Source: Pseudorhodobacter sp. PARRP1
GTDB lineage: Bacteria; Pseudomonadota; Alphaproteobacteria; Rhodobacterales; Rhodobacteraceae
Assembly: GCA_002256245.1 (NCBI GenBank)
Contig: NKIU01000001.1
Coordinates: forward strand, 248,001-312,000
DNA length: 64,000 nucleotides
Direction of reading: 5' to 3'
The position numbers were made by a program, and so were the translations under genes. Below the pieces are notes generated by a model that did not search any database, was not told the origin of the DNA, and saw only the letters and a list, made by a program, of their open reading frames with translations. Every line of letters starts with the position of its first letter. Position 1 is the stretch's first letter. Below are positions 3,976-50,891 of the stretch, one piece after another.

Positions 3976-4038
3976 CCTTGCCTCCTGTTGGTGCAGACCT
4001 TATGACGGCGCTATCCATAATCCAAGCCGGGGGCGCGC

Positions 4039-5301: not shown

Positions 5302-5373
5302 GCGAATTCCGATGCGGAATTCGGCACGGAATTCGCGCGAATTCCGGCTTGGTGCCTGCGATGGCGCGAATTC
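5302..5373. repeat. Cluster of five GAATTC palindromes after purD
   Basis: Five GAATTC hexamers occur at 5304, 5317, 5329, 5339 and 5368. The first two form a perfect 8-base-pair hairpin (GAATTCCG, three-base loop, CGGAATTC). The third and fourth lie in the 18-base perfect palindrome GGAATTCGCGCGAATTCC at 5328-5345. The block starts at the purD stop and may fold as a terminator, although no T-run follows. Confidence 0.7.
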
Positions 5374-5519
5374 AAGCTAAATTGCACCGATGCGCATTTT
5401 CTGCCATAGTCGGCAGATTAAACCTCGGGGGCCTGCGTTGGGCTGGCATCCCGTTGCGCTAAGTCGGTTGCCTCTGCGTTGATATCAGCATTGGCATCGC
5501 GTCATTGAAGGAGAGCGGC

Positions 5520-7508
5520 TTGGCCGACCCAAGCATCACACGCACGGCGACGGGAACCATTGGTGCCGATGTGATGACGGTGCGACAGATGTTCCTCGCG
5601 GGCGAGTTGATCGCAACGGGCGCAATCCGCACCTATGTCACCACGCTGAAAGGCGCATCGGGAAACGACACGATCACAGGCTGGCAGGGCCCGTCAAACT
5701 GGCCTGCGTTTTTCAACGGCGCATTGTCGTCCGAGACGCTGACAATCCGCTCGGTGCTTTCGGGGGGCGATGGTCAGGATACGTTGATCTCCTCGAGGCG
5801 CTTGCCCGGACTGAGCCCGGCACAACAGGCAGCCTACCAGCTGGCCGAAACCTTGGCGGGTGGCCTTGGCAATGACACCTATCAACTTAACCACACCGAT
5901 GCCCGCATCGTGGATGTCACGGGTGGCGGCACCGACAGGGTTTACGTCACGCCGACATATCTGCTGTGCGCCGCAGCGTTGGGGATCAAAAGCATCAGCA
6001 TGGTGCCGATGGCCTTTGTCGAAAACCTGTTCCTGCAAGGGACCAGCAATTTTGATGTCACAGGGTCTGACCTTGCAAACACCATCACCGGCAACATAGG
6101 GGCCAACCGCATTCTCGGCGGGCTGGGCGATGACACGACATATGGTGGTGGCGGGGCCGACAAGCTGTATGGCGACCGCGCCAACGCCTTGGTCAGCGGG
6201 GGCAATGATCGCCTGTTCGGTGGCGACGGAACCGACACGCTATACGGTGAAGCGGGCGATGACTATCTTGACGGGGGCAATGATGCGGATGGGCTTTACG
6301 GCGGCACCGGCAACGATAATCTGATTGGCGGCTTGGGCGCAGACAGCCTGCTTGGCGGCTTAGGCGACGATGCGTTGAATGGCGCGAGCGGGTCGGATCT
6401 GCTCAACGGCGACTTCGGCAACGATCGGCTTTTCGGCGGAAGCGATGCCGACAGCCTTGTGGGCGGCGACGGCGACGATGCCATCTATGGTGGCACCGAG
6501 GATGACACCATAAATGCAGGCGCAGGCAATGATTTGCTGGTGGGCGACGGCGGCAACGATCTTATGACCGGCGGTGCGGGCGACGATATCTATCTGGTGG
6601 ACTGTATCACCGACGAGGTCATCGAACTTTCGGGCGAAGGCGTTGACACCGTCCGATCCAGCGTGATCGCCCTTAGTGGCGGAGACTTCACCGAAATCGA
6701 GGTTTTGCAGCTTCTGGGCACGCAAAATCTGGATCTGTGGGGGGGCGGGCAGGTGCTGCGGCTGATCGGCAATGCCGGAGAAAACACCCTGACCGCCGGC
6801 GGGGTTGACGGCGAAGGGCTCTATGGCGGTGCCGGCAATGACGTGTTGCTGGCGCTGACCGCCTTCAACCGGATCGACCTTTATGGCGGCAGCGGCGATG
6901 ACCGGTTTTACCTCTATGACCCGTTGCTCGACATTGTGCACGAGACAGCAGGTCAGGGTTTTGACGTGGTCGAGACCGACAGCGCCTCGCTGGATGCCAG
7001 CACAGGTGCCGGCTACGGCCAGAATATCGAAGTGCTGCGCTTGCTGGGTGGGGCGATGCTGGATCTGACCGGCGGCGGCACGGTGCAGCGTCTGGAGGGA
7101 AATGCCGGAGCCAACCGCCTGACCGGCATGACCAATGCCGAACTGATCACCGGGGGCGCAGGCAATGACACGCTGGACGGTGGCACCGGAAACGACACAC
7201 TTTGCGGCGGCGCAGATATCGACGAACTGCACGGCGGCACGGGCAGCGACCACTTCGTTTTCGATCTGATCGGCGCGGGCGACATCGACTATCTGGACGA
7301 TTTCGAGGCAGGCGATGTGCTTGACCTGCACGCAGCCGCATTGGCGGCTGGCCCCGGCGTGCCGTTGCTGGGCGCAAGCCTTGGCACCTTCAACGCGATG
7401 ACGGTGCACCTTTACAGCTTTGACTTTAACGGCGACGGCACCACCGATCTGGCGTTCTATTCGCGCAATGAAATCGGGCTGAGCGATCTGCTGGCAGGCT
7501 TCGGCTAG
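5520..7508 (+). CDS. RTX-type calcium-binding protein (first paralog)
   Basis: A secreted RTX (hemolysin-type) protein of about 662 residues. It has no signal peptide, as expected for type I secretion, in which a C-terminal signal is used. Residues 1-190 form a unique N-terminal region. Repeated GGxGxD nonapeptides that coil around calcium fill residues about 195-360 and recur near 440-470 and 545-590. Between them are two copies of a roughly 100-residue module ending in LDLxGGGxVxRLxGNAGxNxLT. The start is taken as TTG 5520 because AGGAG sits at 5509-5513; the TTG at 5505 has no ribosome site. No ABC exporter or membrane-fusion gene is adjacent. The N-terminal half resembles the second RTX protein at 9703. 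Confidence 0.85.
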   Translation: MADPSITRTATGTIGADVMTVRQMFLAGELIATGAIRTYVTTLKGASGNDTITGWQGPSNWPAFFNGALSSETLTIRSVLSGGDGQDTLISSRRLPGLSPAQQAAYQLAETLAGGLGNDTYQLNHTDARIVDVTGGGTDRVYVTPTYLLCAAALGIKSISMVPMAFVENLFLQGTSNFDVTGSDLANTITGNIGANRILGGLGDDTTYGGGGADKLYGDRANALVSGGNDRLFGGDGTDTLYGEAGDDYLDGGNDADGLYGGTGNDNLIGGLGADSLLGGLGDDALNGASGSDLLNGDFGNDRLFGGSDADSLVGGDGDDAIYGGTEDDTINAGAGNDLLVGDGGNDLMTGGAGDDIYLVDCITDEVIELSGEGVDTVRSSVIALSGGDFTEIEVLQLLGTQNLDLWGGGQVLRLIGNAGENTLTAGGVDGEGLYGGAGNDVLLALTAFNRIDLYGGSGDDRFYLYDPLLDIVHETAGQGFDVVETDSASLDASTGAGYGQNIEVLRLLGGAMLDLTGGGTVQRLEGNAGANRLTGMTNAELITGGAGNDTLDGGTGNDTLCGGADIDELHGGTGSDHFVFDLIGAGDIDYLDDFEAGDVLDLHAAALAAGPGVPLLGASLGTFNAMTVHLYSFDFNGDGTTDLAFYSRNEIGLSDLLAGFG

Positions 7509-7587
7509 GCCTGGCCATCGCTGGCCTTGCCCTTGCGGGCGCTTCTGTTATGAAGCCCGCGATTTGAATGGCAGGAAAAGGCGCATC

Positions 7588-8844
7588 ATGCCGCTTCTGG
7601 TGATGAAATTTGGCGGCACCTCGGTGGCCGACCTCGCGCGGATCGAAAATGCCGCGAAAAAGGTGCAGGCCGAGGTGGCGCGCGGCTATGACGTGATCGT
7701 CATCGTCTCGGCGATGTCGGGCGAGACCAACAAGATGGTTGGTTTTGTCGAAGGCACCTCAAAGCTCTATGACGCCCGCGAATATGACGCCGTGGTGTCG
7801 AGTGGTGAGAATGTCACCGCTGGCCTGATGGCGCTGCGGTTGCAGGAAATGGGCATTGCGGCGCGGTCGTGGCAGGGTTGGCAGGTGCCGATCAACACCA
7901 CTTCGGCGCATTCCAGCGCCCGTTTTGTCAGCATCCCGCGTGACAATATCGACGCGAAGTTTGCCGAAGGCTTCAAGGTGGCCGTGGTGGCAGGCTTCCA
8001 AGGCGTGTCCGCCGAAGGCCGGGTGACGACCCTGGGCCGTGGCGGATCAGACACCACCGCCGTGGCCTTTGCGGCGGCGTTTGGGGCAGAGCGTTGCGAT
8101 ATCTACACCGATGTCGATGGCGTCTATACCACCGATCCGCGCATCACCAACAAAGCCCGCAAGCTGGACAAGATCGCGTTCGAGGAAATGCTGGAACTGG
8201 CCTCGCTGGGGGCCAAAGTGCTGCAAACCCGCTCGGTCGAACTGGCGATGCGCTACAAGGTGCGGCTGCGGGTGTTGTCCTCGTTTGAGGAAACCGACGA
8301 AAATTCTGGAACGCTGGTCTGCGACGAGGATGAGATCATGGAATCGAAAGTTGTGTCGGGCGTGGCCTACAGCCGCGATGAAGCCAAAGTGACACTGGTG
8401 CGGGTTGAAGATCGCCCCGGCATCGCCGCCGCAATCTTCGGGCCTTTGGCCGAGGCGGGCGTCAACGTCGATATGATCGTGCAGAACATCTCCGAGGTTG
8501 AGGTGGGCAGCAGCAAGGGGGCTACCACCGACATGACCTTCTCGTGCCCGACCAATCAGGTGGCGCGCGCGCAAAAGGCAATGGAGGATGCGGTCGCGGC
8601 CGGGATGATCACCTATGATGGCATCGTGGTCGATAGTGACGTGGCCAAGATTTCCGTGGTCGGCATCGGGATGCGGAGCCACGCGGGCGTGGCCGCGACG
8701 ATGTTCAAGGCGCTGTCGAAAGAGAACGTGAATATCAAGGTGATCGCCACGTCCGAGATCAAAATCTCGGTGCTGATCGACCGGAAATATATGGAACTGG
8801 CGGTGCAGGCTTTGCACGATGCGTTCGAGCTTGAGAAGGCCTGA
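7588..8844 (+). CDS. lysC: Aspartate kinase
   Basis: Aspartokinase, 418 residues, phosphorylates aspartate in the first step toward lysine, methionine and threonine. The kinase domain starts with VMKFGGTSVAD and carries TLGRGGSDTTAVAFAAA and the DVDGVYTTDPR nucleotide/aspartate-binding loop. Residues about 265-418 are two ACT regulatory domains (VRVEDRPGIAAAIFG and VVGIGMRSHAGVAATMF), so allosteric control by lysine or threonine is expected. The ATG at 7588 follows AGGAAAAG with good spacing; an upstream TTG at 7564 is rejected. The gene sits between two RTX genes with no functional link evident. Confidence 0.96.
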   Translation: MPLLVMKFGGTSVADLARIENAAKKVQAEVARGYDVIVIVSAMSGETNKMVGFVEGTSKLYDAREYDAVVSSGENVTAGLMALRLQEMGIAARSWQGWQVPINTTSAHSSARFVSIPRDNIDAKFAEGFKVAVVAGFQGVSAEGRVTTLGRGGSDTTAVAFAAAFGAERCDIYTDVDGVYTTDPRITNKARKLDKIAFEEMLELASLGAKVLQTRSVELAMRYKVRLRVLSSFEETDENSGTLVCDEDEIMESKVVSGVAYSRDEAKVTLVRVEDRPGIAAAIFGPLAEAGVNVDMIVQNISEVEVGSSKGATTDMTFSCPTNQVARAQKAMEDAVAAGMITYDGIVVDSDVAKISVVGIGMRSHAGVAATMFKALSKENVNIKVIATSEIKISVLIDRKYMELAVQALHDAFELEKA

Positions 8845-8869
8845 GGCGGTTTTTCGGCCCAACAATTTG

Positions 8870-8900
8870 ACGCCGGGTGGCTTGGCTGTCCGGCGTTTTC
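8870..8900 (+). terminator. Rho-independent terminator after lysC
   Basis: Inverted repeat ACGCCGG (8870-8876) and CCGGCGT (8890-8896), with a 13-base loop and a T-rich tail (TTTTC). It lies 26 bases past the lysC stop. Confidence 0.7.
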
Positions 8901-8974
8901 TTATGCTGTCCACGCGTGGACCGGGTGCATATTTGTTTGATATCAGGTAGTTGAGATCTGGGGTTAGCGATTTG

Positions 8975-9346
8975 TTAACCCCTGCCCCGCCACACAAACC
9001 GACCCGGTCCGGTGCTGGCCAAAATCAGCAAGCCCCCCGCGATAGACCAGTTTTTCACCATGATCGTCACCTGCCACGGGTCGGCGCGCAGTTGCCAGTG
9101 AAAATAGCTGGTGAAAATGCAATAGCCCGCCAGCACCAGCGCCCAGCCCCGCACGCCGGGGCCAAAGATCAGGCCAAGTGCTGCAATCAGGTTGAAAGCG
9201 GCGGTCGGCCAGACCAGCCAAGTGGGCAAACCGATTGAGGCGATCATATCGCTGACCGGCACGGGGTCGCCCAGTTTCTGCGCCGCGCCGCCAAGGAACA
9301 GCACGGCAATCAGGATGCGGCCTGCAAGGTTAAGCGCGTCGTTCAT
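8975..9346 (-). CDS. DoxX family membrane protein
   Basis: A 123-residue DoxX-type protein with four predicted membrane helices. N-terminal MNDALNLAGRILIAVLFLGGAAQKLGD is typical of the family, and the pattern continues with FNLIAALGLIFG, GWALVLAGYCIFTSYFHWQL and a final helix GGLLILAST. DoxX relatives are linked to thiol or quinone redox stress, but the role here is unknown. The ATG at 9346 is preferred over an upstream in-frame start that would add 80 residues with no family similarity. Bases 9347-9702, up to the next gene, are AT-rich and hold no gene; they probably carry the promoters of both divergent genes. Confidence 0.85.
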   Translation of the reverse strand: MNDALNLAGRILIAVLFLGGAAQKLGDPVPVSDMIASIGLPTWLVWPTAAFNLIAALGLIFGPGVRGWALVLAGYCIFTSYFHWQLRADPWQVTIMVKNWSIAGGLLILASTGPGRFVWRGRG

Positions 9347-9702
9347 CGCGTCAAAGTGGCAGGTTCTGGCGGCCTGGGCAAGCGGGGATGGCCCGATCTC
9401 GATGCGCGTGATCACAAGGGCGCGCAGGCTTGGCGATCTGGCATCTGATACAAGGGATAAACCCGTTTTGGCCAAGGGCGCCCAATATCTGTCGTCGTTC
9501 AAGGCCCCCCCGGCCCGTTGGGGCTGACATACAATCGGGGCGGGCACGGATGCGATGGAGCCGCCGCATTTTCTTATAGAAATCAAAGTTAACGCAAGAA
9601 TAACTGTAGATTATATACATCTTTAATGGCATCCCCTGCCCAGTGTGGGACGCTATGCTGCCTTTGGACACGGCAGCCACTATGATGGATTTTGGGAGAA
9701 AA

Positions 9703-11322
9703 ATGGGACTTGTTCTAAATACGCTTACGCGCACCTTGGACGGCGGCGACGAGACCAATGATGTGTTGCGGGCCCCGAGGCAGACGGCCAATGGCACCTA
9801 TCAACGCTATGAGTTCAACGTAAATGGCTTGGGCGGCGACGATCGGCTGTTTGGCAGCAATGGCCCGTGGAACTGGGCGCGGTATGGCTTGGCCCATCCG
9901 ACCGAGGTGGTGGAGGTTGTGAACAACCTGCACGGCGGGTCTGGCAACGACGTCATTTTTTCAACGATTGGCCTGACGAACCTCGACCCTTCCATTGCCG
10001 CAAACTACTCTCTGACAGATATCCTGACAGGCGGTGAAGGCGACGATACCTTTGTGCTGCGCAGCAGCAACGTCACCCTGAATGAACGTGCCGGTGTCCT
10101 GGGCGGAATTGATACTGTGGTGCTGACCACGCAGGCGCTCGCCGCGTTTGGCGCGACCTTCTCACTGGGCCTGTCACAGAGCATTGAAAACATCCGTGTG
10201 CAGGCGACCGCGCGTTATTCGGATGTGCAGATCATCGGTAACTTGGCGAATAACACCATCTGGGACAATGCTGCCAATGGCCATGTGTTCGGCGGAGATG
10301 GTGCTGACACGATTTATGGCGCAGCAGGCAACGATGTTCTCGAAGGTGAGAACGGAGCCGATCTGTTGCGGGGCGGGGCCGGTTTGGACACCCTTAACGG
10401 CGGCGATGGCGACGACCGGTTGCTTGGAGGAGCGGGCGACGACAGTCTTTCGGGCGGTTTGGGCCACGACTTTCTCAGCGGTGGCGGCGACAACAACTTG
10501 CTTTACGGTGACGAAGGCAATGACACGCTGTTCGGTAATACGGGCTTGGATAGCCTTTACGGTGGCGATGACGACGACCGGTTGATCGGACAAGCGGGCG
10601 AAGACAGTCTTTCGGGCGGGTCGGGCCATGATTTGCTGATTGGCGGCAGCGAAAGCGACGTGCTTTACGGTGGCATTGGCAATGACACGCTGCTTGGTGG
10701 TGCAGGCATAGACAACATGTTCGGCGGCGAGGGTGATGACTCTTTCAGCGTGGATGACTTGTTTGACGAGGTGTTCGAAACTAGCACGGGCGGCTTTGAT
10801 ACCGTGGCTTCGGCTACATTCACCCTGAGGGAAAGCAGCTATTCAAACATCGAAGCATTGAAGCTGGGCGGCACGCTGAACCTTGATCTTTACGGTGGTG
10901 ACAACGGCATGACCCTGACGGGGAATGACGGTGACAACCGCATCTATGGTGGCACAGGCAACGACATCATCAGCGGCGGTGCCGGAAACGACCGCATCGT
11001 CGGCGGCATTGGGGCGGACACGTTAACCGGTGGTGATGGCGCGGATGTGTTTGTGTTCAACCTAGCCTCATATGCACAAGACGCGACCGACTTAGCGTAT
11101 AGCAGCGTGACTATTCTCGACTTTGGGGTTGGCGACGATAAAATCGACGTCAGCTCAACGAGTTGGTCGCAGCTAAGTCCCAATTCTTACTATGACTACG
11201 TTGCAGACCTATTATTGGAGATCAATGGGAACTCTTTCACCTTGTCCTTCGGTAATGATGCGCAGATGACATTCGTCACGAATGAGGCACTTTCTTCAGC
11301 CGACTTCCTGTTTTACGACTGA
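9703..11322 (+). CDS. RTX-type calcium-binding protein (second paralog)
   Basis: A protein of 539 residues with RTX repeats (GGDGADTIYG, GGAGLDTLNGG and many more, residues about 195-360 and 405-450). The C-terminal 60 residues are low in charge and end in an aspartate-containing hydrophobic tail, as in type I secretion substrates. The ATG at 9703 is preceded by GGGAG at 9694; an upstream GTG start would add 20 residues. The N-terminal 190 residues align by eye with the protein at 5520: an NGPxNW motif, a GGxGND turn, then a proline-containing linker before AANYSLTDILTGGEGDDTF. A strong terminator follows the gene. Confidence 0.85.
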   Translation: MGLVLNTLTRTLDGGDETNDVLRAPRQTANGTYQRYEFNVNGLGGDDRLFGSNGPWNWARYGLAHPTEVVEVVNNLHGGSGNDVIFSTIGLTNLDPSIAANYSLTDILTGGEGDDTFVLRSSNVTLNERAGVLGGIDTVVLTTQALAAFGATFSLGLSQSIENIRVQATARYSDVQIIGNLANNTIWDNAANGHVFGGDGADTIYGAAGNDVLEGENGADLLRGGAGLDTLNGGDGDDRLLGGAGDDSLSGGLGHDFLSGGGDNNLLYGDEGNDTLFGNTGLDSLYGGDDDDRLIGQAGEDSLSGGSGHDLLIGGSESDVLYGGIGNDTLLGGAGIDNMFGGEGDDSFSVDDLFDEVFETSTGGFDTVASATFTLRESSYSNIEALKLGGTLNLDLYGGDNGMTLTGNDGDNRIYGGTGNDIISGGAGNDRIVGGIGADTLTGGDGADVFVFNLASYAQDATDLAYSSVTILDFGVGDDKIDVSSTSWSQLSPNSYYDYVADLLLEINGNSFTLSFGNDAQMTFVTNEALSSADFLFYD

Positions 11323-37771: not shown

Positions 37772-39013
37772 ATGAAGCTGCGCGATCTTGAGATTTTTAC
37801 CGTGGCCCCGCCTGCACCGGGTTGGGGCGGGCGCTATTGGACCTTTGTGAAGCTGACCACCGACAACGGCATTGTCGGCTACGGCGAGTGTTATGCCTCG
37901 ACCGTGGGCCCCCGCGCCATGGGGGCGGTGATTGAGGATGTGTTTGAGCGGCATATGCTGGGGGAAAACCCGGAAAACATCGAGCTGATGTATCGCCGGG
38001 CCTATTCGGCGGGCTTCACGCAGCGGCCTGACCCGACGGTGATGGGGGCGTTTTCGGGGCTGGAGATTGCCTGCTGGGATATCTTGGGCAAGGCGCGGGA
38101 TCGTCCGGTTTGGGCGCTTTTGGGCGGGATGATGAATGAGAAGGTGCGCTCTTACACCTATCTTTACCCCGAGGAAGGCGAGATTCCGGCGGATTTCTGG
38201 GTGAACCCGGATATGGCGGCCGAGGCTGCGGCGCGTTGTGTCAAGCAGGGTTTCACAGCCGTTAAATTCGATCCGGCTGGCCCCTATACCATTCGCGGCG
38301 GGCACGAGCCTGCGATGTCGGATATCTCGCGCTCGGTGGCGTTTTGTGCGAAAATCCGCGAGGCGGTGGGCGACAAGGCCGACCTGTTGTTCGGCACGCA
38401 TGGCCAGTTTACCACACCCGGCGCGATCCGGTTGGGGGTGGCGATCGAGCCCTATAACCCCCTGTGGTATGAAGAGCCGATCCCGCCGGACAATCTGGCC
38501 GAGTTCGCCGAAGTGGCGCGCCATGTGCGGGTGCCGCTGGCGACGGGCGAGCGTTTGACGACGAAGGCCGAGTTTGGCGCGTTGCTGCGGCATGGCGGGG
38601 TGAAGATCTTGCAGCCCGCGCTGGGGCGTGTGGGCGGCATCTGGGAGGCCAAGAAGATCGCAGCGATGGCCGAGGTTTATAACGCCGAGATGGCGCCGCA
38701 TCTGTATGCAGGACCGGTGGAATGGGCAGCGAATGTGCATTTTGCGGTGTCGATCCCGAATATCCTGATGGCCGAGACGATCCAGACCGGCGGCGCGTTC
38801 CATCTGAAGCTGATCAAGCATTCTCTGAAATGGGAGGATGGCTATATCCTGCCGCCGACGGCTCCGGGTTTGGGTATTGAGTTTGACGAGGATGTCGCAC
38901 GCGCGCATCCCTATACTGGCACAGCGTTGCATTTGCAGATGCAGGAAGCGCCCTGCGATTATCTGCATGGCAACCGCTTTGAGGGGGGCGCGCCCGCGCC
39001 GACCTCGATTTAA
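37772..39013 (+). CDS. Mandelate racemase/muconate lactonizing enzyme family protein
   Basis: A 413-residue enolase-superfamily enzyme, probably a sugar-acid dehydratase or cycloisomerase. The capping domain ends near residue 125. In the barrel, AVKFDPAGPYT (lysine region) lies near 165, and metal ligands are expected in LLFGTHGQF, WYEEPIPPDN near 230 and ATGERL near 256. The late APHLYAGPVEWAANVHF near 311 supplies the general-base histidine of the MR subgroup. It is transcribed alone and ends at a good terminator. The exact sugar acid cannot be told. Confidence 0.88.
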   Translation: MKLRDLEIFTVAPPAPGWGGRYWTFVKLTTDNGIVGYGECYASTVGPRAMGAVIEDVFERHMLGENPENIELMYRRAYSAGFTQRPDPTVMGAFSGLEIACWDILGKARDRPVWALLGGMMNEKVRSYTYLYPEEGEIPADFWVNPDMAAEAAARCVKQGFTAVKFDPAGPYTIRGGHEPAMSDISRSVAFCAKIREAVGDKADLLFGTHGQFTTPGAIRLGVAIEPYNPLWYEEPIPPDNLAEFAEVARHVRVPLATGERLTTKAEFGALLRHGGVKILQPALGRVGGIWEAKKIAAMAEVYNAEMAPHLYAGPVEWAANVHFAVSIPNILMAETIQTGGAFHLKLIKHSLKWEDGYILPPTAPGLGIEFDEDVARAHPYTGTALHLQMQEAPCDYLHGNRFEGGAPAPTSI

Positions 39014-41987: not shown

Positions 41988-42746
41988 TTAAACCTCTACC
42001 CCGCCTTTGACGCCGGTGATGTAGCTGACGATGTCGTTGCCGTCGGTTTCATCGCGGCGCAAGCTGGCGACGATGCGACCCCGGCGGAACACCACGATAC
42101 GGTCAACCAGATCAAACACCTGCCGCAGGTTGTGGCTGACCAAGATCAGCGGCACGCCGCGCTCTTTCAAACCCCGGATGATGTTTTCGACCTGAGCGGT
42201 TTCCTGCACGCCCAAGGCTGCGGTGGGTTCGTCCATGATCACCAGTTTGGAGGCAAATGCCGCCGTGCGGGCGATGGAAACACACTGACGCTGGCCGCCC
42301 GACATGTTGCGGATCGGGTTATCGACGTTGGGGATTTTGACGGCCGTGGTCTTCAGCGCCTCCATCGTCTTTTCGCGCATCGCTTTGCGGTCAAGGATCG
42401 AGAACGGGCCGAGTTTGAATTTGAACAACTCGCGCCCCAGAAACAGGTTCGAGGGCACGTCGAGATCATCGGCCAAGGCGAGGGTTTGGAACACGGTTTC
42501 AATGCCGGATTCGCGGGCTTGCAGGGGCCCGGCGAAGTTGACAGGTGCGCCGTCGAAGATCACGTCGCCCGCCGTGCGCTGCTCCACGGCGGTGATCTGG
42601 CGCACGAAGGTCGATTTGCCGGCACCATTGTCGCCCACCACCGCGACATGCTCGCCGTGGCGCAGGGTGAAATTGGCATCCTCCAGCGCGTGAACGCCGC
42701 CGTAGCGCTTGGTCAGGCCACGGGTTTCCAGAATGAAATCGCTCAT
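41988..42746 (-). CDS. Sugar ABC transporter ATP-binding protein (single-domain, FrcA-like)
   Basis: A 252-residue ATPase with one nucleotide-binding domain: Walker A GDNGAGKSTFVRQI near 39, signature MSGGQRQCVSIARTAAF near 150 and Walker B LVIMDEPTAALGVQE. Most sugar (ribose/xylose-type) importers use a double-length ATPase; the single domain resembles the fructose-type FrcA. The start ATG 42746 overlaps the permease stop as ATGA. It is the last gene of the import operon. Confidence 0.9.
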   Translation of the reverse strand: MSDFILETRGLTKRYGGVHALEDANFTLRHGEHVAVVGDNGAGKSTFVRQITAVEQRTAGDVIFDGAPVNFAGPLQARESGIETVFQTLALADDLDVPSNLFLGRELFKFKLGPFSILDRKAMREKTMEALKTTAVKIPNVDNPIRNMSGGQRQCVSIARTAAFASKLVIMDEPTAALGVQETAQVENIIRGLKERGVPLILVSHNLRQVFDLVDRIVVFRRGRIVASLRRDETDGNDIVSYITGVKGGVEV

Positions 42747-43831
42747 ACCCGTGCTCCCCGGCTTTTCTGCCGCCATTGATCCAGCACAACCGCGCCAACG
42801 ATGATCACGCCCTTGACCATTTCCTGATAGTAGGCGTCGAGTTTCAGGAAGGTGAAGCCCGAGATGATCACCCCGAAAATCAGCGCGCCGATCACCGTGC
42901 CGATGATGGAACCACGCCCGCCTTGCAGGGAAATCCCGCCGATCACCGCCATGGCGATAGCGTCAAGTTCATACATCACCCCCATATTCGCCTGCGCGGT
43001 CTGACCCTTGGACGACACCACGATGGCGGCGATGGAGGCCAGCATCGCAGCGATGACATAGACCAGCACCTTGTGGCGATCGACGTTGATGCCCGACATC
43101 CGCGTGGCTTGTTCATTGGAACCAATGGCATAGCTGTGCTTGCCGTATTTGGTATAGGTCATGATCAGGTGGAACAGCACCGCCAAGGCGATGAAGATGA
43201 ACACCGGGCGCATGCCGGAACCGATGGCGTTGTAGCTTTCGGTGGGGAAAGAAATCGGGTTGCCGGTGGACCACCAGCGGGCAAACCCACGCGCCGACAC
43301 CATCATGCCCAGCGTGGCGATGAAGGGCGGGATTTTGGTGTAAGCCACAAGCGCGCCATTGATCAGACCGGCGATCAGACCGCAGCCAAGGCCGACAAGG
43401 ATTGGCACGAAGATCGGCAAATCCATCGCCCAGTCGCCAAAGATCGCTTTCGGGTTTGGGTTGCCGTTGACAAGGGCGGTTTGCGCGAAACTCATCGCGA
43501 CCATGGCGGTGGCGCCGACGACCGAGCCTGAGGACAGATCAATGCCGCCGGTGATGATCACCTGCGTCACGCCGATGGCGATGATGCCGACGGTGGCGAC
43601 TTGCAGGATGATGATCGACAGGCGCTGGGTGTTGAACAGGCCCTCGGTGCCCTCACGCGTGTTGAACAAAAAGCTTTCGCCCATGATCAGGCGGCCCAGA
43701 ATTTCGAACGCCGCAACGATGATGAGGAACGCGATGAACACGTTCAACTCTTGCGGGCGGGCTTTCTTCGATGGGTCGTATTTCAGGCCACCAAGGCCAT
43801 GCGCAGGCTCTGCCACGGGTCTCTCCCCCAT
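42743..43831 (-). CDS. Sugar ABC transporter permease
   Basis: A 362-residue inner-membrane permease of the RbsC/FrcC family with about ten hydrophobic helices. The family motif VTQVIITGGIDLSSGSVVG (residues about 85-105) and IPPFIATLGMMVSARGFARW (about 168-187) are clear. DAIAMAVIGGISLQGGRGSIIGT near 292 is the EAA-like ATPase-contact region. It would carry a monosaccharide or cyclitol delivered by the adjacent binding protein. It overlaps the ATPase gene by four bases. Confidence 0.92.
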   Translation of the reverse strand: MGERPVAEPAHGLGGLKYDPSKKARPQELNVFIAFLIIVAAFEILGRLIMGESFLFNTREGTEGLFNTQRLSIIILQVATVGIIAIGVTQVIITGGIDLSSGSVVGATAMVAMSFAQTALVNGNPNPKAIFGDWAMDLPIFVPILVGLGCGLIAGLINGALVAYTKIPPFIATLGMMVSARGFARWWSTGNPISFPTESYNAIGSGMRPVFIFIALAVLFHLIMTYTKYGKHSYAIGSNEQATRMSGINVDRHKVLVYVIAAMLASIAAIVVSSKGQTAQANMGVMYELDAIAMAVIGGISLQGGRGSIIGTVIGALIFGVIISGFTFLKLDAYYQEMVKGVIIVGAVVLDQWRQKSRGARV

Positions 43832-43923: not shown

Positions 43924-44865
43924 TCAGTTCTTGGCGAGGAAATCGCCGATGTTCGCCGGGGTCACCAGCTGGAACGGGATATAGACTTTCTGCTCAACCG
44001 CTTCGCCCTTCGACAGCTTGATCGCCGCATCCAAAGCACCTGCGCCCTGCCCTGCCGCGTCCTGGAACACGGTTGCGTCCAACTCGCCGGCCTGCATTGC
44101 GGCCAGAGCGTCTTGGGTGGCATCAATGCCCGCCACGACCACCGAAGCCATATCGACGTTGGCGGCTTTCAACGCCTGAATAGCGCCGATGGCCGATTCG
44201 TCGTTGTTGGCGATCACACCGTCAAAGGCGGTGCCGGTTGACAACCAGTTGGTCATCAGGTTTTGCGCCTCATCACGCGACCAGTTCGAGGTTTGCTCGT
44301 CGATCACGGTGATCTTGACGCCGCAATCCGGGCCACCGATCACGTCATGGATGTCTTTGGTGCGCTGGACTGCGGCTTGGTTGGAAAGCTCGCCCATGAT
44401 GACATAGACGCTGGCTTCGGTCTTGCCAGCTTCCTTGAACAGACGGCAGACTTCTTTGGTTTCCAGCGTGCCGCTGTCCACTTCGTTCGAGGCGACGAAC
44501 GCCTGGTTGTCTGGCAGGGTATCGACGTTGATCGGCTCGCGGTTGACGTAAACCAGCGGGATGTTGGCGGCAGCAGCCGCGTCCGACATCGCTTGGGTGG
44601 CCGAGGTGTCAACCGGGTTGACGATGATCGACGACACGCCCGAGGCGATGAAGTTGTTGATCTGGTCCAACTGCTTGGCCACATCGTTCTGCGCATCTTC
44701 GATTTGCAGCCCGACGCCAAGTTCCTTGGCTTTGGCATCCATACCGTTGCGCAGAACGGTCAGGAAGTTGTCGTCAAACTTCGCCATCGACACGCCGATG
44801 CCATCCGCCATCGCGCTGGTGCCCATCAGGGCCGCAAAACCAGCGATCAAAAGGGTCTTTTTCAT
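43924..44865 (-). CDS. Sugar/cyclitol ABC transporter periplasmic binding protein
   Basis: About 313 residues of the RbsB-like (Peripla_BP_4) family. The signal peptide is MKKTLLIAGFAALMGTSAMA, cleaved before DGIGV. The two-lobed body shows ASGVSSIIVNPVDTSATQAM near 80, LVYVNREPINV near 108 and NNDESAIGAIQALKAANV near 222. GGAGGAGAG precedes ATG 44865. It delivers its ligand to the permease encoded 92 bases downstream. The TIM-barrel and moc-like neighbours suggest an inositol-type ligand, but that is an inference. Confidence 0.9.
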   Translation of the reverse strand: MKKTLLIAGFAALMGTSAMADGIGVSMAKFDDNFLTVLRNGMDAKAKELGVGLQIEDAQNDVAKQLDQINNFIASGVSSIIVNPVDTSATQAMSDAAAAANIPLVYVNREPINVDTLPDNQAFVASNEVDSGTLETKEVCRLFKEAGKTEASVYVIMGELSNQAAVQRTKDIHDVIGGPDCGVKITVIDEQTSNWSRDEAQNLMTNWLSTGTAFDGVIANNDESAIGAIQALKAANVDMASVVVAGIDATQDALAAMQAGELDATVFQDAAGQGAGALDAAIKLSKGEAVEQKVYIPFQLVTPANIGDFLAKN

Positions 44866-44912
44866 GTGTCTCTCCTCCACAAGTTGGTGTCCGGCACACC
44901 GTTTTTGGCCGG

Positions 44913-44946: not shown

Positions 44947-45753
44947 TCAGGCAGCGATGCCTGTGCGGATGAATTCGATTGAAGCCGCAAGCGCCGGTTT
45001 TGGGTCGGCCAGATTGTGCACGCTTGGGGCAAAGGGTTCGTAGCTGACAGCGCCTGTGTAACCTGCGCTGCGCAGCGCGCGGATTTGGGCGACGTTGCCC
45101 AAAAGGTCATCGGCATCGACCAGAACGCGGTGCGGGTCGCGCATGTCGTTGACGTAGATGCTGTCCTTGACGCCCGAGACATGCACGATCCCGGTCAGGT
45201 CGGGATAGATCGGGCCGCCGCCTGCAAGCGCGTGGTGGAAGGTGTCGTGCACCATGTAGTAGGTGCCTTTGCCGCCGACAGCTTCGATCACATCGGCCAG
45301 AACGTCCTTATAGCGCAGCGAGCAGACCTCGAACCCCAGCGGTTCAACCATCGCCTTGAGGCCGTAGGATTGCAGCATCGGCAGCAGCGCGCGCAAAGCG
45401 GTTTCGGTGACTTGGCGGCTTTCGGCGCGGCTGGTGGCGACGTTGTCATTGCGTGGGATCAGGCTGATGGCTTCGGCACCGCAGGCCACCGCGATTTTCA
45501 TCAGCGCCTCGGCCTCGGCGCGTTTGGCATCCGACCAATCGTTGAACATCTTGACCTCGGCCAAGGCAAGGATGCGCAGGCCAGCGGCGAGGGCGGCGCG
45601 GCCCACTTCGGCGGGGTCGGCACCGTCAAACAGTGGCGTTTGAAAATCGTTGCGGAATTCGACGCCGACACAGCCCAGCGACTGCGCAAGATCAAGGAAA
45701 GCCAACCAGCCAAGTTTTGGGGTGGTCATGTGGTTTAGGGCAAACGGCAGCAT
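44947..45753 (-). CDS. IolI-like TIM-barrel sugar isomerase/epimerase
   Basis: A 268-residue xylose-isomerase-like TIM barrel. Likely metal ligands are in MVEPLGFEVCSLRY (glutamate near 138), YYMVHDTFHHALAGG (near 170) and GAVSYEPFAPSVHN (near 241). The overall pattern recalls IolI (2-keto-myo-inositol isomerase) and rhizopine-catabolism MocC-like proteins. It is the first transport-operon gene after lacI. The proposed job is to isomerise the imported and oxidised cyclitol; the specific substrate is unproven. Confidence 0.82.
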   Translation of the reverse strand: MLPFALNHMTTPKLGWLAFLDLAQSLGCVGVEFRNDFQTPLFDGADPAEVGRAALAAGLRILALAEVKMFNDWSDAKRAEAEALMKIAVACGAEAISLIPRNDNVATSRAESRQVTETALRALLPMLQSYGLKAMVEPLGFEVCSLRYKDVLADVIEAVGGKGTYYMVHDTFHHALAGGGPIYPDLTGIVHVSGVKDSIYVNDMRDPHRVLVDADDLLGNVAQIRALRSAGYTGAVSYEPFAPSVHNLADPKPALAASIEFIRTGIAA

Positions 45754-45808
45754 GGTGGAAATTCCTCGACTCGAGGCCCCTCCTCGGGCCTGTGGTTCAA
45801 CTGTCTTG

Positions 45809-45895
45809 GAATTGATATTCTATTTCAAGCAACAATTCATACCGGGGTTCTAATTCTGCGGCTTGATTTTGACGATTTTTGACGAGAATTGTTGC
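45809..45895. promoter_or_regulatory. Promoter/operator region upstream of the TIM-barrel operon
   Basis: This AT-rich gap between lacI and the TIM-barrel gene holds GAATTGATATTC (45809). It also has a perfect 10-base inverted pair GCAACAATTC (45829-45838) / GAATTGTTGC (45886-45895), and a tandem TTTTGACGA direct repeat (45867-45885). These are candidate binding sites for the adjacent LacI-type regulator. Confidence 0.45.
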
Positions 45896-45939: not shown

Positions 45940-46965
45940 TTAGATGGATTCGGCCACATGCAGGTCGGGTGGCAGAAAATGCTGCACTCCGCCGGGGCCA
46001 CGGGCATCGGTTGTGGCGCGGGCCATAGTGGCCATCAAATCACGGCAAAGTTTTTCCAGCGGCGTGTCGATGGTAAGGGTGATCAAGCCCTCGGCCAAGC
46101 CCGCGCGCGACTCTGGTGTGAGGGCCGAGACCACAAGGGCAACGGGCTGCGCCATGCGGGCTTCGCGCAGGGCGGCAATCGCGCCCTCCATCCCGCCACC
46201 TGCCACATAGATGCCGCGCAGATCGGGCTGACGCGCCAGCAGGTTGAGGGTGGCCTCGTAGGTCAACTGGCGGGTTTCAAGGTTCACCAACGTATCCAGC
46301 ACCGTCAGATGCGGCGCACATTCGCGCAGGTAGCCGCGAAATCCGGTCTCACGCAACTCGTGCCCGTGCCAGCGGTGCCCGCCGACAAAAAGCGCCATCG
46401 TGCCGGGGTTGCGGATGGTTTGGTGCATGAACCACGCGGCGGTGCGCCCGACCTTGAGATTGTTCAGCCCAAGATAGCCCGCGCGCGCGCCTTGGGCGAA
46501 ATCGGACAGCAGGGAAAACACCGCGATGCCCTTGCTGGAAAGCGCTTCCACCGCAGCCGTCACCTCGGGGTGGTTGACGGCTGTGCCCGCCAGAACATCG
46601 CAGCGCCCCGCCATCGCGCGCAGGGCGGATGCCATCTCGCCGGGGGCCTGACTGGAGGAAAACTCGAGCACCAGACGGCCGCGCACACCGGGCACCTGTG
46701 CGACAGCGCGGTGCAAGGCCTCGGCGAAGGCTTTGTAGAAATCCTGCCCCTGCTTGTGCAGCACCACACCGAAGCGGATCTCGCGCAACTCGGCCGCCTG
46801 CGGTGAGAGGCGGCGCGCGGCGGGGTGGCCGATACGCTCGGCCGCAGCGATGATCTGCGCGCGGGTGTCTTCGCGCACAGGCTCTCGCCCGTTCAGCACG
46901 CGGTCCACCGTGGCCACGGAAACGCCCGCCGCACGCGCCAAATCTGCCATGCCCAACCGCTTCAT
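45940..46965 (-). CDS. LacI family transcriptional regulator
   Basis: A 341-residue regulator. The N-terminal helix-turn-helix and hinge helix are clear: MADLARAAGVSVATVDRVLNGREPVREDTRAQIIAAAERIG. Residues 65-341 form a periplasmic-binding-protein-like effector domain of the type found with sugar and cyclitol systems (VVLHKQGQDFYKAFAEAL near 72, GIAVFSLLSDF near 150). It lies between the import operon on its own strand and the divergent moc-like operon, so it probably represses both in response to the imported compound. Confidence 0.92.
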   Translation of the reverse strand: MKRLGMADLARAAGVSVATVDRVLNGREPVREDTRAQIIAAAERIGHPAARRLSPQAAELREIRFGVVLHKQGQDFYKAFAEALHRAVAQVPGVRGRLVLEFSSSQAPGEMASALRAMAGRCDVLAGTAVNHPEVTAAVEALSSKGIAVFSLLSDFAQGARAGYLGLNNLKVGRTAAWFMHQTIRNPGTMALFVGGHRWHGHELRETGFRGYLRECAPHLTVLDTLVNLETRQLTYEATLNLLARQPDLRGIYVAGGGMEGAIAALREARMAQPVALVVSALTPESRAGLAEGLITLTIDTPLEKLCRDLMATMARATTDARGPGGVQHFLPPDLHVAESI

Positions 46966-46979
46966 CGCATCCTCCAGCC

Positions 46980-47036
46980 AAAAGCCTGACGGCTTTTCAT
47001 CACCGATCTGCGTATTCTGACGAAATTTGATGATAA
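46980..47036. promoter_or_regulatory. Divergent lacI/mocD-like promoter region with dyads
   Basis: A perfect inverted repeat AAAAGCC-TGAC-GGCTTTT (46980-46997) lies 15 bases before the lacI start. TTCTGACGAAAT near 47017 shares TGACGA with the repeats at 45867. These could be operators for the LacI protein. Confidence 0.4.
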
Positions 47037-47118
47037 CCGCCAGAGGTTCGCTTGGCTAAAATGGAATATATCTTCTATCCTTCGCGTAAGTGGCGACAAT
47101 TTTGGGGAGAGAATCCAG

Positions 47119-48207
47119 ATGAGCAAGCGCGATTACTCGCTGTTGGGCCCGGATGGCGCCCGTGCGGTGGCAACCGGGCTGGCGGCTGCGGAATGGTATC
47201 ACACGGATGTGCCGCGCAAAGAGATGAAGGCGTTGATGCAGCGCAGCGACGCTCCGGCGATCCGCGACACGCTGCTGTTGTTTGGCCTGATGGCAGGCTT
47301 TGCCGGGATCGGGATTTATCTGTGGCCGTCGTGGTATAGCGCGCCGTTCTGGCTGGCTTACGGGGTGTTATACGGTTCGGCCAGCGACAGCCGCTGGCAT
47401 GAGGCGGGGCACGGCACCGCGTTCAAGACGCCGTGGATGAACAACGCGCTTTATGAAGTCGCAAGCTTCATGATCATGCGCAACTCGGCCACATGGCGGT
47501 GGAGCCATGCGCGCCACCACACCGACACCTATATCGTTGGCCGCGACCCCGAGATTGCGATCATGCGCCCCCCGGCCTTTGCCAAACTGATCGCCGCGTT
47601 TTTTGGCCTGCCCGATGTGGCGGCGTTCTTTCCCCGGATGCTGTATAATGCCTTCATCGGCGTGCATCCCAGCGAGAAAACCTTCGTTCCCGAAAGTGAA
47701 TGGCCGAAAGTGGTGCGGGTGGCGCGGATTTCGACTGCGATTTACGCCGCGACCTTTGCGCTGGCGCTGTGGATGGGGTCGATCCTGCCGCTGATGGTGA
47801 TTGGCCTGCCCCGGCTTTATGGCGCGTGGCATCATGTGATGACGGGGCTGTTGCAGCACGGCGGTCTGGCCGACAATGTGATCGACCACCGGTTGAACTC
47901 GCGCACCGTTTACATGAACCCGGTCAGCCGCTTTATCTATTGGAACATGAATTACCATGTCGAGCACCACATGTTCCCGATGGTGCCCTATCACGCCCTG
48001 CCCCGGCTGCATGCGGCGATCAAGCACGATCTGCCCGCGCCGAACACCTCGATTGCGCAGGCGTTTGCCGAGATGTGGCCGGCGTTAAAGCGGCAACTGG
48101 CGTCGGAGGAGTATTTTCTGAAGCGCGATTTGCCCGCCACCGCCAAACCCTACCGTGAAGATTTTCATCTGGCCGCCCTTGGGGCCGCCCCTGCTGCTGC
48201 GGAGTAG
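47119..48207 (+). CDS. MocD-like fatty-acid-desaturase-family di-iron oxygenase
   Basis: A 362-residue integral-membrane di-iron enzyme. The three histidine boxes are visible: HEAGHG near 94, HARHH near 130 and HVEHH near 280, with four predicted helices. Its immediate partner is a MocE-like ferredoxin, and the pairing matches the rhizopine-catabolism genes mocD and mocE of rhizobia, where MocD is described as a hydrocarbon-oxygenase-like protein. It would hydroxylate or oxidatively demethylate its substrate. GGGGAGAG precedes ATG 47119. A lipid desaturase is the alternative, but the ferredoxin and sugar-uptake context argue otherwise. Confidence 0.85.
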   Translation: MSKRDYSLLGPDGARAVATGLAAAEWYHTDVPRKEMKALMQRSDAPAIRDTLLLFGLMAGFAGIGIYLWPSWYSAPFWLAYGVLYGSASDSRWHEAGHGTAFKTPWMNNALYEVASFMIMRNSATWRWSHARHHTDTYIVGRDPEIAIMRPPAFAKLIAAFFGLPDVAAFFPRMLYNAFIGVHPSEKTFVPESEWPKVVRVARISTAIYAATFALALWMGSILPLMVIGLPRLYGAWHHVMTGLLQHGGLADNVIDHRLNSRTVYMNPVSRFIYWNMNYHVEHHMFPMVPYHALPRLHAAIKHDLPAPNTSIAQAFAEMWPALKRQLASEEYFLKRDLPATAKPYREDFHLAALGAAPAAAE

Positions 48208-48210
48208 AAC

Positions 48211-48525
48211 ATGACCGAATGGATTGACGCTTGCGCCACTGACGACATCGACGCCGAAGACCTGATCCGCTTTGATCACGGCGGGGCCACCTATGCGATC
48301 TACCACGCGCCCGATGGGGATTTCTTTGCCACGGCGGGTAAATGCACGCATGAGGACGTGCATTTGTCGAACGGGCTGGTGATGGATTATGTGATCGAAT
48401 GCCCCAAGCACAACGGCCAGTTCGACTATCGCACCGGCGAGGCGAAACGTGCGCCGGTTTGTGTGAACCTGAAAACCTATCCGGTGAAGGTTGAGGGCGG
48501 TCGCGTCTTCATTCAGGTGGCTTGA
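48211..48525 (+). CDS. MocE-like Rieske 2Fe-2S ferredoxin
   Basis: A 104-residue Rieske-type ferredoxin. The cluster ligands are Cys45-x-His47 (KCTHEDVHLSNG) and Cys64-x2-His67 (ECPKHNGQFDY), the standard spacing for bacterial Rieske ferredoxins. It should pass electrons to the MocD-like oxygenase encoded four bases upstream. The flavin reductase that would be the third component (MocF in rhizobia) is not found next to it; a gene beyond the insertion-sequence junction may have been lost. Confidence 0.9.
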   Translation: MTEWIDACATDDIDAEDLIRFDHGGATYAIYHAPDGDFFATAGKCTHEDVHLSNGLVMDYVIECPKHNGQFDYRTGEAKRAPVCVNLKTYPVKVEGGRVFIQVA

Positions 48526-49323
48526 ATGGCGCGCTTGACGGTCAACGATTTGCTGGATGCGCGCGGCAAGCACCCGTTTGCCATGCTGCGGGTGGAAACG
48601 CTGGAGGAAGCAGAGGCTGCGGAAAAGGCCGGGGTCGAGTTGCTGTCGATCCCGCCTGCGATGATCCATGATCGGCAGTTTCGCGATGCCGCGCCCAATG
48701 CCTTCGCGTTTCCGGGCGATAATTTCTATGAAATCGGCGATACGGCGGATTTTCTGAAATGGGCGTTTCCGCTGTATAAGGCGGGCGCGGATGGGTTTTA
48801 TTGCTCGGGCTCGTTGCAGACGGTGAAGGCGATGGCGGATCATGGCTTGCCGGTGTGCGGCCATGTTGGGCTGATCCCGTCCAAGCGCACCTGGACGGGT
48901 GGCTTCAAAGCGGTGGGCAAGACTTTGGCCACGGCGCAACTGGTCTATCAGCAATGCTGCGCCCTAGAGGCTGCGGGCGCGTTTGCCGTTGAGATTGAGG
49001 TGGTGCCGCACGCGATCACGCAGGCGATTGCCGAGAAAACCGGGCTGTTCCTGATCTCGATGGGCGCCGGGCCTGCGGGGCATGCGCAATATTTGTTCAG
49101 CGATGATGTGCTGGGGCAAACCGTGGGACATGTGCCGCGCCATGCCAAACGCTATGCGGATTTTGCCAGCGAATACGCGCGGTTGCAGCAGATGCGGGTG
49201 GCTGCGATGACGGCCTATGCCGCGGATGTGCACGACGGCAGCTACCCCGCGCCTCAGCATCTGGTGGACAGCGATGCCGAGGTGGTGGCACAGTTTTGTG
49301 ATTGGCTGGAGCGGCAGGGTTAA
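48526..49323 (+). CDS. Divergent PanB-like (ketopantoate hydroxymethyltransferase family) protein
   Basis: A 265-residue TIM barrel of the PanB family. Recognisable are VCGHVGLIPSKRTWTGGFKAVGK (the histidine-glycine loop, residues 105-127), AALEAAG-type ALEAAGAFAVEIEVVPHAI with the active-site glutamate, ISMGAGPAGHAQYLFSDDVLG and GHVPRHAKRY. The N-terminal metal-binding motif VGDS of true PanB is replaced by LSIPPAM, so magnesium binding is probably altered. It begins directly at the mocE-like stop. PanB enzymes handle a one-carbon unit from methylene-tetrahydrofolate; here it may take up a one-carbon unit or cleave a hydroxymethyl group. Confidence 0.8.
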   Translation: MARLTVNDLLDARGKHPFAMLRVETLEEAEAAEKAGVELLSIPPAMIHDRQFRDAAPNAFAFPGDNFYEIGDTADFLKWAFPLYKAGADGFYCSGSLQTVKAMADHGLPVCGHVGLIPSKRTWTGGFKAVGKTLATAQLVYQQCCALEAAGAFAVEIEVVPHAITQAIAEKTGLFLISMGAGPAGHAQYLFSDDVLGQTVGHVPRHAKRYADFASEYARLQQMRVAAMTAYAADVHDGSYPAPQHLVDSDAEVVAQFCDWLERQG

Positions 49324-49548: not shown

Positions 49549-49628
49549 TGAGCTACCCCCCGAAAATCGGACAGTGACGGAAGCTACGATCTGAGGTCTG
49601 CTGATCCCCAAGACGAGGAGATCAGAAC

Positions 49629-49931
49629 ATGTCGAAACGCAGGAACCATGACGCGGCGTTCAAGGCGCGGGTGGCGTTGGAGGCGCTGAAGGGCGAGCGC
49701 GCGGTGTCGGAACTGGTGACCGCGTATGAGGTCCATCCGACGATGATCCATCAGTGGAAGAAGGCGCTGCTGGAAGGTGCCGCGGGCATTTTCGAGCGTG
49801 GCGGTCAGGCTGCTGCCACCGCCGAGATTGCCGAGGAAACGGTCCGTGATCTGCATGCCAAGATCGGAGAACTGGCCGTCGCCAACGATTTTTTGTCACG
49901 AAAGCTCAAGCCCTGGATCGGGAAGTGGTGA
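49629..49931 (+). CDS. IS3-family transposase OrfA (helix-turn-helix protein)
   Basis: A 100-residue DNA-binding subunit, MSKRRNHDAAFKARVALEAL opening, then helix-turn-helix AVSELVTAYEVHPTMIHQWKKALLEG and a leucine-rich C-terminus (VRDLHAKIGELAVANDFLSRKL). It has a good ribosome site (GAGGAGAT) before ATG 49629. In active IS3 elements OrfA joins OrfB by a -1 ribosomal frameshift. Here OrfB lies in the same frame after a TGA, so that mechanism looks broken. Confidence 0.92.
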   Translation: MSKRRNHDAAFKARVALEALKGERAVSELVTAYEVHPTMIHQWKKALLEGAAGIFERGGQAAATAEIAEETVRDLHAKIGELAVANDFLSRKLKPWIGKW

Positions 49932-49937
49932 GGGATC

Positions 49938-50852
49938 GTGCCGCCACCGGTTCGAGGCCGATCCCGAACGGGCATGATCGAGCGAACCCATCCCAAGCTG
50001 TCGGTCGGGGCGCAGTGCCAGTTGCTCTCGATCTCGCGGTCGTCGTTTTACTACGCACCGCAGGGCGAGACGGCGCTGAACCTTGACCTCATGTTGCTGG
50101 TCGACAAGCAGTTCCTGGACACGCCGTTTTACGGCGTCCGGCAGATGACGTGGCACTTGCAGAACGAGGGGCATGCTGTGAACGAAAAGCGCATCCGGCG
50201 GCTGATGCGCCTTATGCGACTGATGCCGATCTACCAAAAACCCAACACAAGCAAGCCCGCGAAGGGGCACAAGACATACCCCTACCTGCTCGGTGGGCTG
50301 CGGATCGACAGACCAAACCAGGTCTGGTGCGCCGACACCACCTATTTGCCGATGCGGAAAGGCTTTCTGTATCTGGTGGCCATCATGGACTGGTTCACCC
50401 GCAAGGTGCTGGCCTGGCGGATATCGAACACGCTGGAGGCCGAGTTCTGCCTCGAGGCACTGAACGAAGCCATCCACAAGTTCGGTCCGCCAGAGATTAT
50501 GAACACCGACCAGGGCAGTCAGTTCACTTCGTTCGATTGGACCGACCGGCTGAAGCGGGCAAAGACCAGGATATCGATGGATGGCAAAGCCCGATACCTC
50601 GACAACCCTCGGGCAATCCCTCGGACCAATGGCGGGAATGCCCTCGACATGTCACGCCTCTGGCGGTCCCTCAAATACGAATGCGTCTATCTGCACGCCT
50701 GGGAAACCGGGTCACAGGCCAAGGCCGGAGTCGGACGCTGGATCACTTTCTACAATCACCAGCGGCCCCATGCCGCCCATGGCGGTCAACCGCCCGCCGT
50801 GGTCTACTTCAACGCAACCCAAACCGATCAGCAGGTGCAGGCATTAGCCTAA
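49938..50852 (+). CDS. IS3-family transposase OrfB with a disrupted DDE catalytic domain
   Basis: About 304 residues, with an rve integrase core. The first aspartate is in VWCADTTYL and the second in MNTDQGSQFTSFDW. The region that should hold the catalytic glutamate (family pattern DN-IFxE-RLWRSLK) reads DNPRAIPRTNGGNALDMS before RLWRSLKYECVYLHAW. It is a net gain of about 12 residues with serine in place of glutamate. The protein is therefore probably inactive. The start may be GTG 49938 or ATG 49974. Confidence 0.85.
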   Translation: MPPPVRGRSRTGMIERTHPKLSVGAQCQLLSISRSSFYYAPQGETALNLDLMLLVDKQFLDTPFYGVRQMTWHLQNEGHAVNEKRIRRLMRLMRLMPIYQKPNTSKPAKGHKTYPYLLGGLRIDRPNQVWCADTTYLPMRKGFLYLVAIMDWFTRKVLAWRISNTLEAEFCLEALNEAIHKFGPPEIMNTDQGSQFTSFDWTDRLKRAKTRISMDGKARYLDNPRAIPRTNGGNALDMSRLWRSLKYECVYLHAWETGSQAKAGVGRWITFYNHQRPHAAHGGQPPAVVYFNATQTDQQVQALA

Positions 50853-50891
50853 CTCAGCCAGAAATCTGTCCAAGAGTCGGGGGGTAGCTCA

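Follow-up and report, generated by a model that had tools for sequence, protein, structure and literature searches.

Three adjacent genes at 47119–49323 of a 64,000-nt window from Pseudorhodobacter sp. PARRP1 (the window being the whole stretch of DNA analysed here, part of contig 24 of a 4.35-Mb genome; positions are those of the window) encode a MocD-like membrane oxygenase, a MocE-family ferredoxin and a PanB-like protein, and lie opposite genes for a LacI-family regulator, a triosephosphate isomerase (TIM) barrel and a sugar ATP-binding cassette (ABC) importer. On balance, we favour a reading in which an O-methylated cyclitol is imported, O-demethylated and fed to the inositol pathway, with the PanB-like protein moving the formaldehyde so released onto tetrahydrofolate (THF). 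This reading draws on the gene content, gene order and co-conservation observed at the locus, on inositol-type palindromes and on the active-site pattern of the PanB-like protein. The trio and its divergent neighbours had been proposed by an earlier model reading of the letters (the original prediction), and both the open reading frames (ORFs) and their family matches bear this out.

The oxygenase operon

The first gene (47119–48207, plus strand) encodes a 362 amino acid protein that matches PF00487 (FA_desaturase) at 130.7 bits against a Pfam cut-off of 29.7 and is a MocD-like membrane di-iron oxygenase, proposed here to be an O-demethylase. The three histidine boxes earlier claimed for it are present, with nine histidines (H94, H98, H130, H133, H134, H247, H280, H283 and H284) conserved in 122/122 aligned sequences, and the protein is 72% identical to the intact MocD of a moc-type locus in Rhizobium leguminosarum Vaf-46 (L104; loci are cited by our own numbers). 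Three bases further on begins the gene for a 104 amino acid Rieske [2Fe-2S] ferredoxin (48211–48525, plus strand), which passes the NCBIfam model TIGR02377 (MocE_fam_FeS) with 168 bits against a cut-off of 136.15 and has a Pfam Rieske-domain match of 66.9 bits. The ATG of the third gene (48526–49323, plus strand) immediately follows the ferredoxin stop codon; its 265 amino acid product matches PF02548 (Pantoate_transf) at 124.3 bits (Pfam cut-off 28.7) and represents a non-canonical subfamily with a putative role in transferring formaldehyde to THF.

Palindromes shared with inositol genes

The strongest evidence for a cyclitol substrate is independent of the argument used in the original prediction and comes from a palindrome shared with inositol genes, one of two common to the aligned homologous promoters. 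In Rhodobacteraceae-type loci this palindrome, TGGAA-N6-TTCYA, has exact copies in 15/32 mocD and 15/26 barrel promoters, where 30 mononucleotide shuffles give means of 0.0 and 0.03, respectively. Searching the 4.35-Mb genome for a stricter 16-bp form, TGGAAT-N4-ATTCYA, gives exactly three sites, and none for the reversed control. One of these, TGGAATTGATATTCTA at 45807–45822, precedes the barrel/importer operon. The second, on contig 17, is just upstream of an operon passing the IolC/aldolase, IolD, IolE and IolB models, and the third, on contig 28, is upstream of a gene passing IolG; IolC, D, E, B and G of the host genome all score above the NCBIfam cut-offs. That the importer operon, iolCDEB and iolG share the palindrome supports the earlier proposal of a cyclitol locus.

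The window palindrome fits a published inositol motif, GGAA-N6-TTCC, which precedes inositol genes and importers in several alphaproteobacteria (PMC2597717; here and below, papers are cited for part of their text only). The iolC promoter of Caulobacter holds two such sites: expression rose when one was mutated and did not change when the other was (PMC2597717). With the palindrome standing before the iol genes and before this locus, the latter is a predicted member of the GGAA-N6-TTCC inositol regulon, under putative IolR control. In rhizobia, a loose GGAA-N6-TTCC lies beside the importer in six of 12 loci scanned (L063, L066, L067, L086, L101 and L114), a count made without a shuffle control.

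A looser copy of the palindrome, TGGAATATATCTTCTA, lies in the mocD promoter at 47062–47077 and is conserved in homologous promoters. The second palindrome, TGAYG-N6-CRTCA (46987–47002 in the window), may be the LacI operator; it is likewise conserved, in 19/32 mocD and 8/26 barrel promoters, and is not significant on its own in the window, where 30 of 100 shuffles reach one match.

Conservation of the locus

We compared the best 80 loci from a scan of named genomes, in which more exist. In the 24 of Rhodobacteraceae type the PanB-like protein is 74–90% identical to that of the window, with 90% in L033 of Cypionkella psychrotolerans, a cultured relative, and every component (ATPase, permease, substrate-binding protein, barrel, LacI, MocD, MocE and PanB-like protein) is found in 20/24; the arrangement is therefore not due to chance. 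As to the incomplete four, L039, L046 and L055 start at a contig end, close to the genes that are missing, and no barrel match was seen in L052. The 56 loci of Rhizobiaceae type, with PanB-like identities of ~52–57%, have MocD in 54/56, LacI in 50/56, a flavin adenine dinucleotide (FAD) ferredoxin reductase in 52/56 and the barrel in 40/56, with purU in 10/56 and folD in 5/56. A homologous importer permease adjoins the cluster in seven of these 56. The expectation that the importer travels with the trio thus holds for the Rhodobacteraceae-type loci and not for those of the Rhizobiaceae.

A distinct PanB-like subfamily

Whilst the third gene product belongs to the PanB family (PF02548), as claimed in the original prediction, it is not a normal PanB: it misses the NCBIfam panB equivalog TIGR00222 (97.9 bits, cut-off 207.55) and its active site is altered. 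With PanB numbering fixed by structure 1m3u, alignments place P44, G64, Y92 and S94 of the window protein at PanB sites D45, D84, K112 and E114, which we take to be the metal and ketoacid residues of PanB. D84, K112 and E114 are changed in 140/140 core members of the subfamily and D45 in 130/140, and all four are retained in 20/20 true PanB proteins. H113 and E158 of the window protein correspond to PanB H136 and E181, presumably the catalytic pair, and these are retained in 140/140 core and 10/10 outer members. When 398 genomes of the phylum were searched with a profile, the high-scoring proteins (at least 187 bits, together with one at 127 bits and a truncated one at 152) all fell in the window's own class, with scores elsewhere of 118 bits or less, among the matches listed. 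Judged by these alignments and profiles, the PanB-like protein represents a distinct subfamily. A normal pantothenate role was considered and rejected, given the differing active site and a true PanB encoded elsewhere in the genome.

Other copies were noted along the way. Locus L150 (G178, ~3300–9800) holds two adjacent PanB-like clusters; one includes MocD, and its neighbour includes MocE, other ABC genes and an FA_hydroxylase-cluster ORF. Tandem PanB-like paralogues are present in L154 (33–44% identical to the window protein) and L177 (33–35%). Among plasmids, matches to the PanB-like query were present in records of Enterococcus (105) and Escherichia (21).

Gene neighbourhoods

Neighbourhoods were examined around 150 PanB-like ORFs in 146 loci, with true panB genes as controls (L033–L178 and L220–L239 in all: the 80 named loci, six plasmid loci, 60 hand-picked places and 20 hand-picked true-PanB controls); many of the rhizobial entries are closely related and do not count as independent. 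Of the 150 PanB-like copies, 143 have an oxygenase or MocE gene no more than 6 kb away, as do 0/20 true panB genes; the oxygenases are MocD, an FA_hydroxylase-type enzyme or a Rieske alpha subunit. Genes for purU, folD or formate dehydrogenase are near 15/150 PanB-like copies and 1/20 true panB genes; purU directly follows the PanB-like gene in L113 (on a plasmid of Sinorhizobium meliloti RCAM1115), L115 and L118, the last two also having folD. In keeping with the original prediction, the PanB-like protein is thus associated with oxygenases and, in a minority of cases, with one-carbon genes.

Seven loci have neither an oxygenase nor MocE within that distance: L077, which reaches a contig end, L075, L153, L169, L171, L174 and L175. 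L075 has purU and folD, with homogentisate-pathway genes upstream, and L169, L171, L174 and L175 carry distant PanB-like members scoring 187–223 bits. Separately, the distant PanB-like proteins of L169 and L175, where no oxygenase was seen, are next to HlyD-type genes, in L169 also an AcrB-type gene.

The reverse test started from 85 MocD-like places with at least 55% identity in 295 family genomes, the PanB-like side being represented by the best places listed. A PanB-like gene lies within 8 kb of 44/85 of these, and of 19/30 at 70% identity or more. By genome, both genes are found in 40, MocD alone in 31, the PanB-like gene alone in 10 and neither in 214 (Fisher p = 8e-21, uncorrected for kinship). 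With the PanB-like gene near 44 of the 85 MocD places, its product is therefore a frequent accessory and not an obligate subunit. Twenty MocD loci lacking a PanB-like gene, some of them cut by contig ends, were compared with our query set as a check on substitutes, six being examined closely: no clear replacement emerged, and no known formaldehyde-capturing enzyme was found among ten neighbour proteins from six loci (Pfam) or six from four loci (NCBIfam). One such locus, L264, has formate dehydrogenase genes near mocDE. Formate dehydrogenase genes are also close to mocE/mocD in L122, L130 and L143; across these four loci they occur with or without a PanB-like gene.

Proposed pathway and alternatives

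In the pathway we favour, the importer would bring in a cyclitol with an O-methyl group, in all likelihood a methyl-inositol (pinitol or ononitol, for example). MocD would hydroxylate this group, its electrons coming from MocE and from a reductase whose gene lies outside the operon (the host genome has a MocF-like reductase, 43% identical), and the resulting hemiacetal would collapse, releasing formaldehyde and free inositol. Ring breakdown would fall to IolG and IolE, D, B and C, perhaps with the TIM barrel. IolI converts a D-chiro-inositol ketone, and a barrel acting in this way could make pinitol an attractive substrate, but the barrel here is only distantly IolI-like. The PanB-like protein would capture formaldehyde or the hydroxymethyl group on THF to give 5,10-methylene-THF, which FolD, plus PurU where present, would oxidise towards formate; in the host genome FolD is encoded in one cluster with Fhs. 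More tentatively, the subfamily as a whole might consist of THF-dependent formaldehyde-activating hydroxymethyltransferases that lost the ketoacid and metal site, kept the one-carbon chemistry and became the one-carbon partners of oxygenative demethylases, a generalisation that we regard as possible though doubtful. Spontaneous condensation of formaldehyde with THF has been concluded to be too slow to contribute to growth on one-carbon compounds, and Escherichia coli PanB has been considered as a promiscuous catalyst, although deletion of panB and ltaE left growth unchanged (PMC7073904).

Several observations weigh against this reading. The demethylation, its substrate and the chemistry of the PanB-like protein are all predicted from sequence. 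The link to one-carbon genes is a minority one (15/150), and the four distant PanB-like relatives, together with L153, have no oxygenase in view. Conversely, 41/85 MocD-like places (11/30 at 70% identity or more), some of them at contig ends, have no PanB-like gene within 8 kb. The loose palindrome form that covers the mocD site is met at 11 distinct genomic places (17 matches when both strands are counted, against 11 for the reversed control), and the case for 47062–47077 therefore rests on conservation; TGGAA-N6-TTCYA was found in 0/54 Rhizobiaceae mocD promoters. Lastly, no PurU above the cut-off was found in the host genome, so that either Fhs, working in reverse, would have to supply the formate or the one-carbon unit would go into synthesis.

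Some of these points suit other explanations. The oxygenase might hydroxylate or dehydrogenate the ring itself, in a cyclitol that is unmethylated or bears some other substituent, with the PanB-like protein serving as an aldolase or lyase on a keto compound derived from the ring rather than on a free one-carbon unit. PanB-like neighbours are lacking for many MocD-like genes, the distant relatives in L171 and L174 sit beside sugar kinases and transporters without oxygenases, and PanB itself presumably belongs to an aldol-type family. We nevertheless think this rather unlikely: the ketoacid residues are lost in every core member (140/140), and the subfamily accompanies several types of oxygenase and, in the 15 cases above, purU, folD or formate dehydrogenase. 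It is distinctly improbable, in our estimation, that the PanB-like protein hands formaldehyde on to some carrier that is not THF, or does no more than buffer it, whilst glutathione-linked oxidation does the work. The missing PurU would fit, as would the dispensability of the PanB-like gene beside MocD in many genomes, but the one-carbon genes found next to PanB-like genes are, where seen, the folate genes purU and folD.

We see very little chance that this is a catabolic locus for rhizopine (3-O-methyl-scyllo-inosamine) proper. MocD and MocE are homologous to the rhizopine proteins, and the moc-type loci L104 and L113 also carry a PanB-like gene; here, however, a LacI protein replaces MocR and the substrate-binding protein fails the NCBIfam rhizopine model NF052284 (42 bits, cut-off 420), though that of L113 likewise gives no match at 1e-40. 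Scarcely credible, finally, is a membrane lipid desaturase with incidental neighbours. PF00487 is indeed the fatty-acid desaturase family, but the best desaturase model scores 41.8 bits against a cut-off of 500, and the operon with ferredoxin and PanB-like genes, the divergent sugar importer and the shared inositol-type palindrome recur in many genomes; we rejected this candidate on synteny and regulation.

Were the proposed demethylation pathway correct, the locus would supply genes for the use of O-methyl-inositols, common plant compounds, and a candidate enzyme linking formaldehyde to folate. A gene routinely annotated as '3-methyl-2-oxobutanoate hydroxymethyltransferase' would become a marker of oxygenative demethylation operons, and there would be a hint at what FixV-type regulators sense.

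Importer, regulator and adjacent features

The LacI regulator and complete sugar ABC importer placed just across from the trio in the original prediction are all present on the minus strand. The regulator (45940–46965; PF00356 45 bits, PF13407 111 bits) has, by synteny, the position of rhizobial FixV homologues. Behind it lies the barrel (44947–45753, minus strand), an isomerase/epimerase-like protein matching PF01261 (AP_endonuc_2) at 74.2 bits; the barrel is as claimed, and the likeness to IolI is weak (22.8 bits to structure 1i60, compared with ~94 bits to 4hgx and 2q02). The importer comprises a substrate-binding protein (43924–44880; PF13407 173.4 bits), which we take to be CUT2-like, a permease (42743–43831; PF02653 156.4 bits) and a 262 amino acid ATPase with one ABC domain (41988–42776; PF00005 97.6 bits). 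Near the importer end, 37772–39013 encodes an enolase-superfamily sugar-acid dehydratase scoring 251.3 bits to galactonate dehydratase, below the cut-off of 311. Just downstream of the PanB-like gene is an element at 49549–50891, presumably IS3-like, which carries two transposase-like ORFs and has inverted ends of 26 nt that are 85% complementary; a small secreted-protein ORF starting near 49390 may be truncated by it.

Comparison with known systems

In part, this gene combination was described in 2013 for rhizobia, where mocDEF diverge from the genes for the LacI protein FixV and the barrel Msi119; the suggested inducer is an inositol derivative, and in Mesorhizobium loti one FixV-type regulator activates nifA2, which serves nitrogen fixation (PMC3538637). 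The same LacI–mocD divergence with the barrel behind LacI is seen here in a non-rhizobial genome, with an importer attached. The claim that the combination was undescribed is therefore partly wrong, although the main text of that paper does not contain the words panB and purU. We found no paper on a PanB-like protein in demethylation in our searches of open-licence literature, which is no proof of absence.

The mocDEF genes take part in the catabolism of rhizopine (PMC10107442), an O-methyl inosamine (PMC3538637). In Rhizobium mesoamericanum, mocDEF homologues and iol genes are upregulated on Mimosa exudate, which the authors interpret as rhizopine use; no component of Mimosa root exudate is more concentrated than pinitol (PMC5789663). 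The L113 regulator scores 756.5 bits with the rhizopine MocR model, above the cut-off of 650, and its gene is followed by mocD, MocE, reductase, PanB-like gene and purU; this mocD (~9220–10308) is split over two frames in the record and unannotated, its relative in L104 being intact. L104 has mocC/A/B-like genes and a MocR-like regulator 87% identical to that of L113, followed by MocD, MocE, reductase, PanB-like gene, purU and folD. The locus described here shares with mocDEF of Sinorhizobium and Rhizobium a homologous oxygenase and ferredoxin and an apparent inositol-derivative pathway, and L104 and L113 share the PanB-like gene and have purU downstream. It differs in having LacI rather than MocR, no reductase gene in the operon, another binding protein and an inositol-type palindrome at both promoters. 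Compared with the GGAA-N6-TTCC inositol module (PMC2597717), the same palindrome precedes iol genes and an ABC importer operon, and here it also precedes an oxygenase operon.

Ketopantoate hydroxymethyltransferase, PanB, shares with the PanB-like protein its family and the conserved H136 and E181, and is set apart by D45, D84, K112 and E114 and by being separately encoded in the host genome. The proposed role resembles that of the formaldehyde-activating enzyme Fae, catalysed condensation of formaldehyde with a one-carbon carrier (PMC7073904); the carrier used by Fae is tetrahydromethanopterin.

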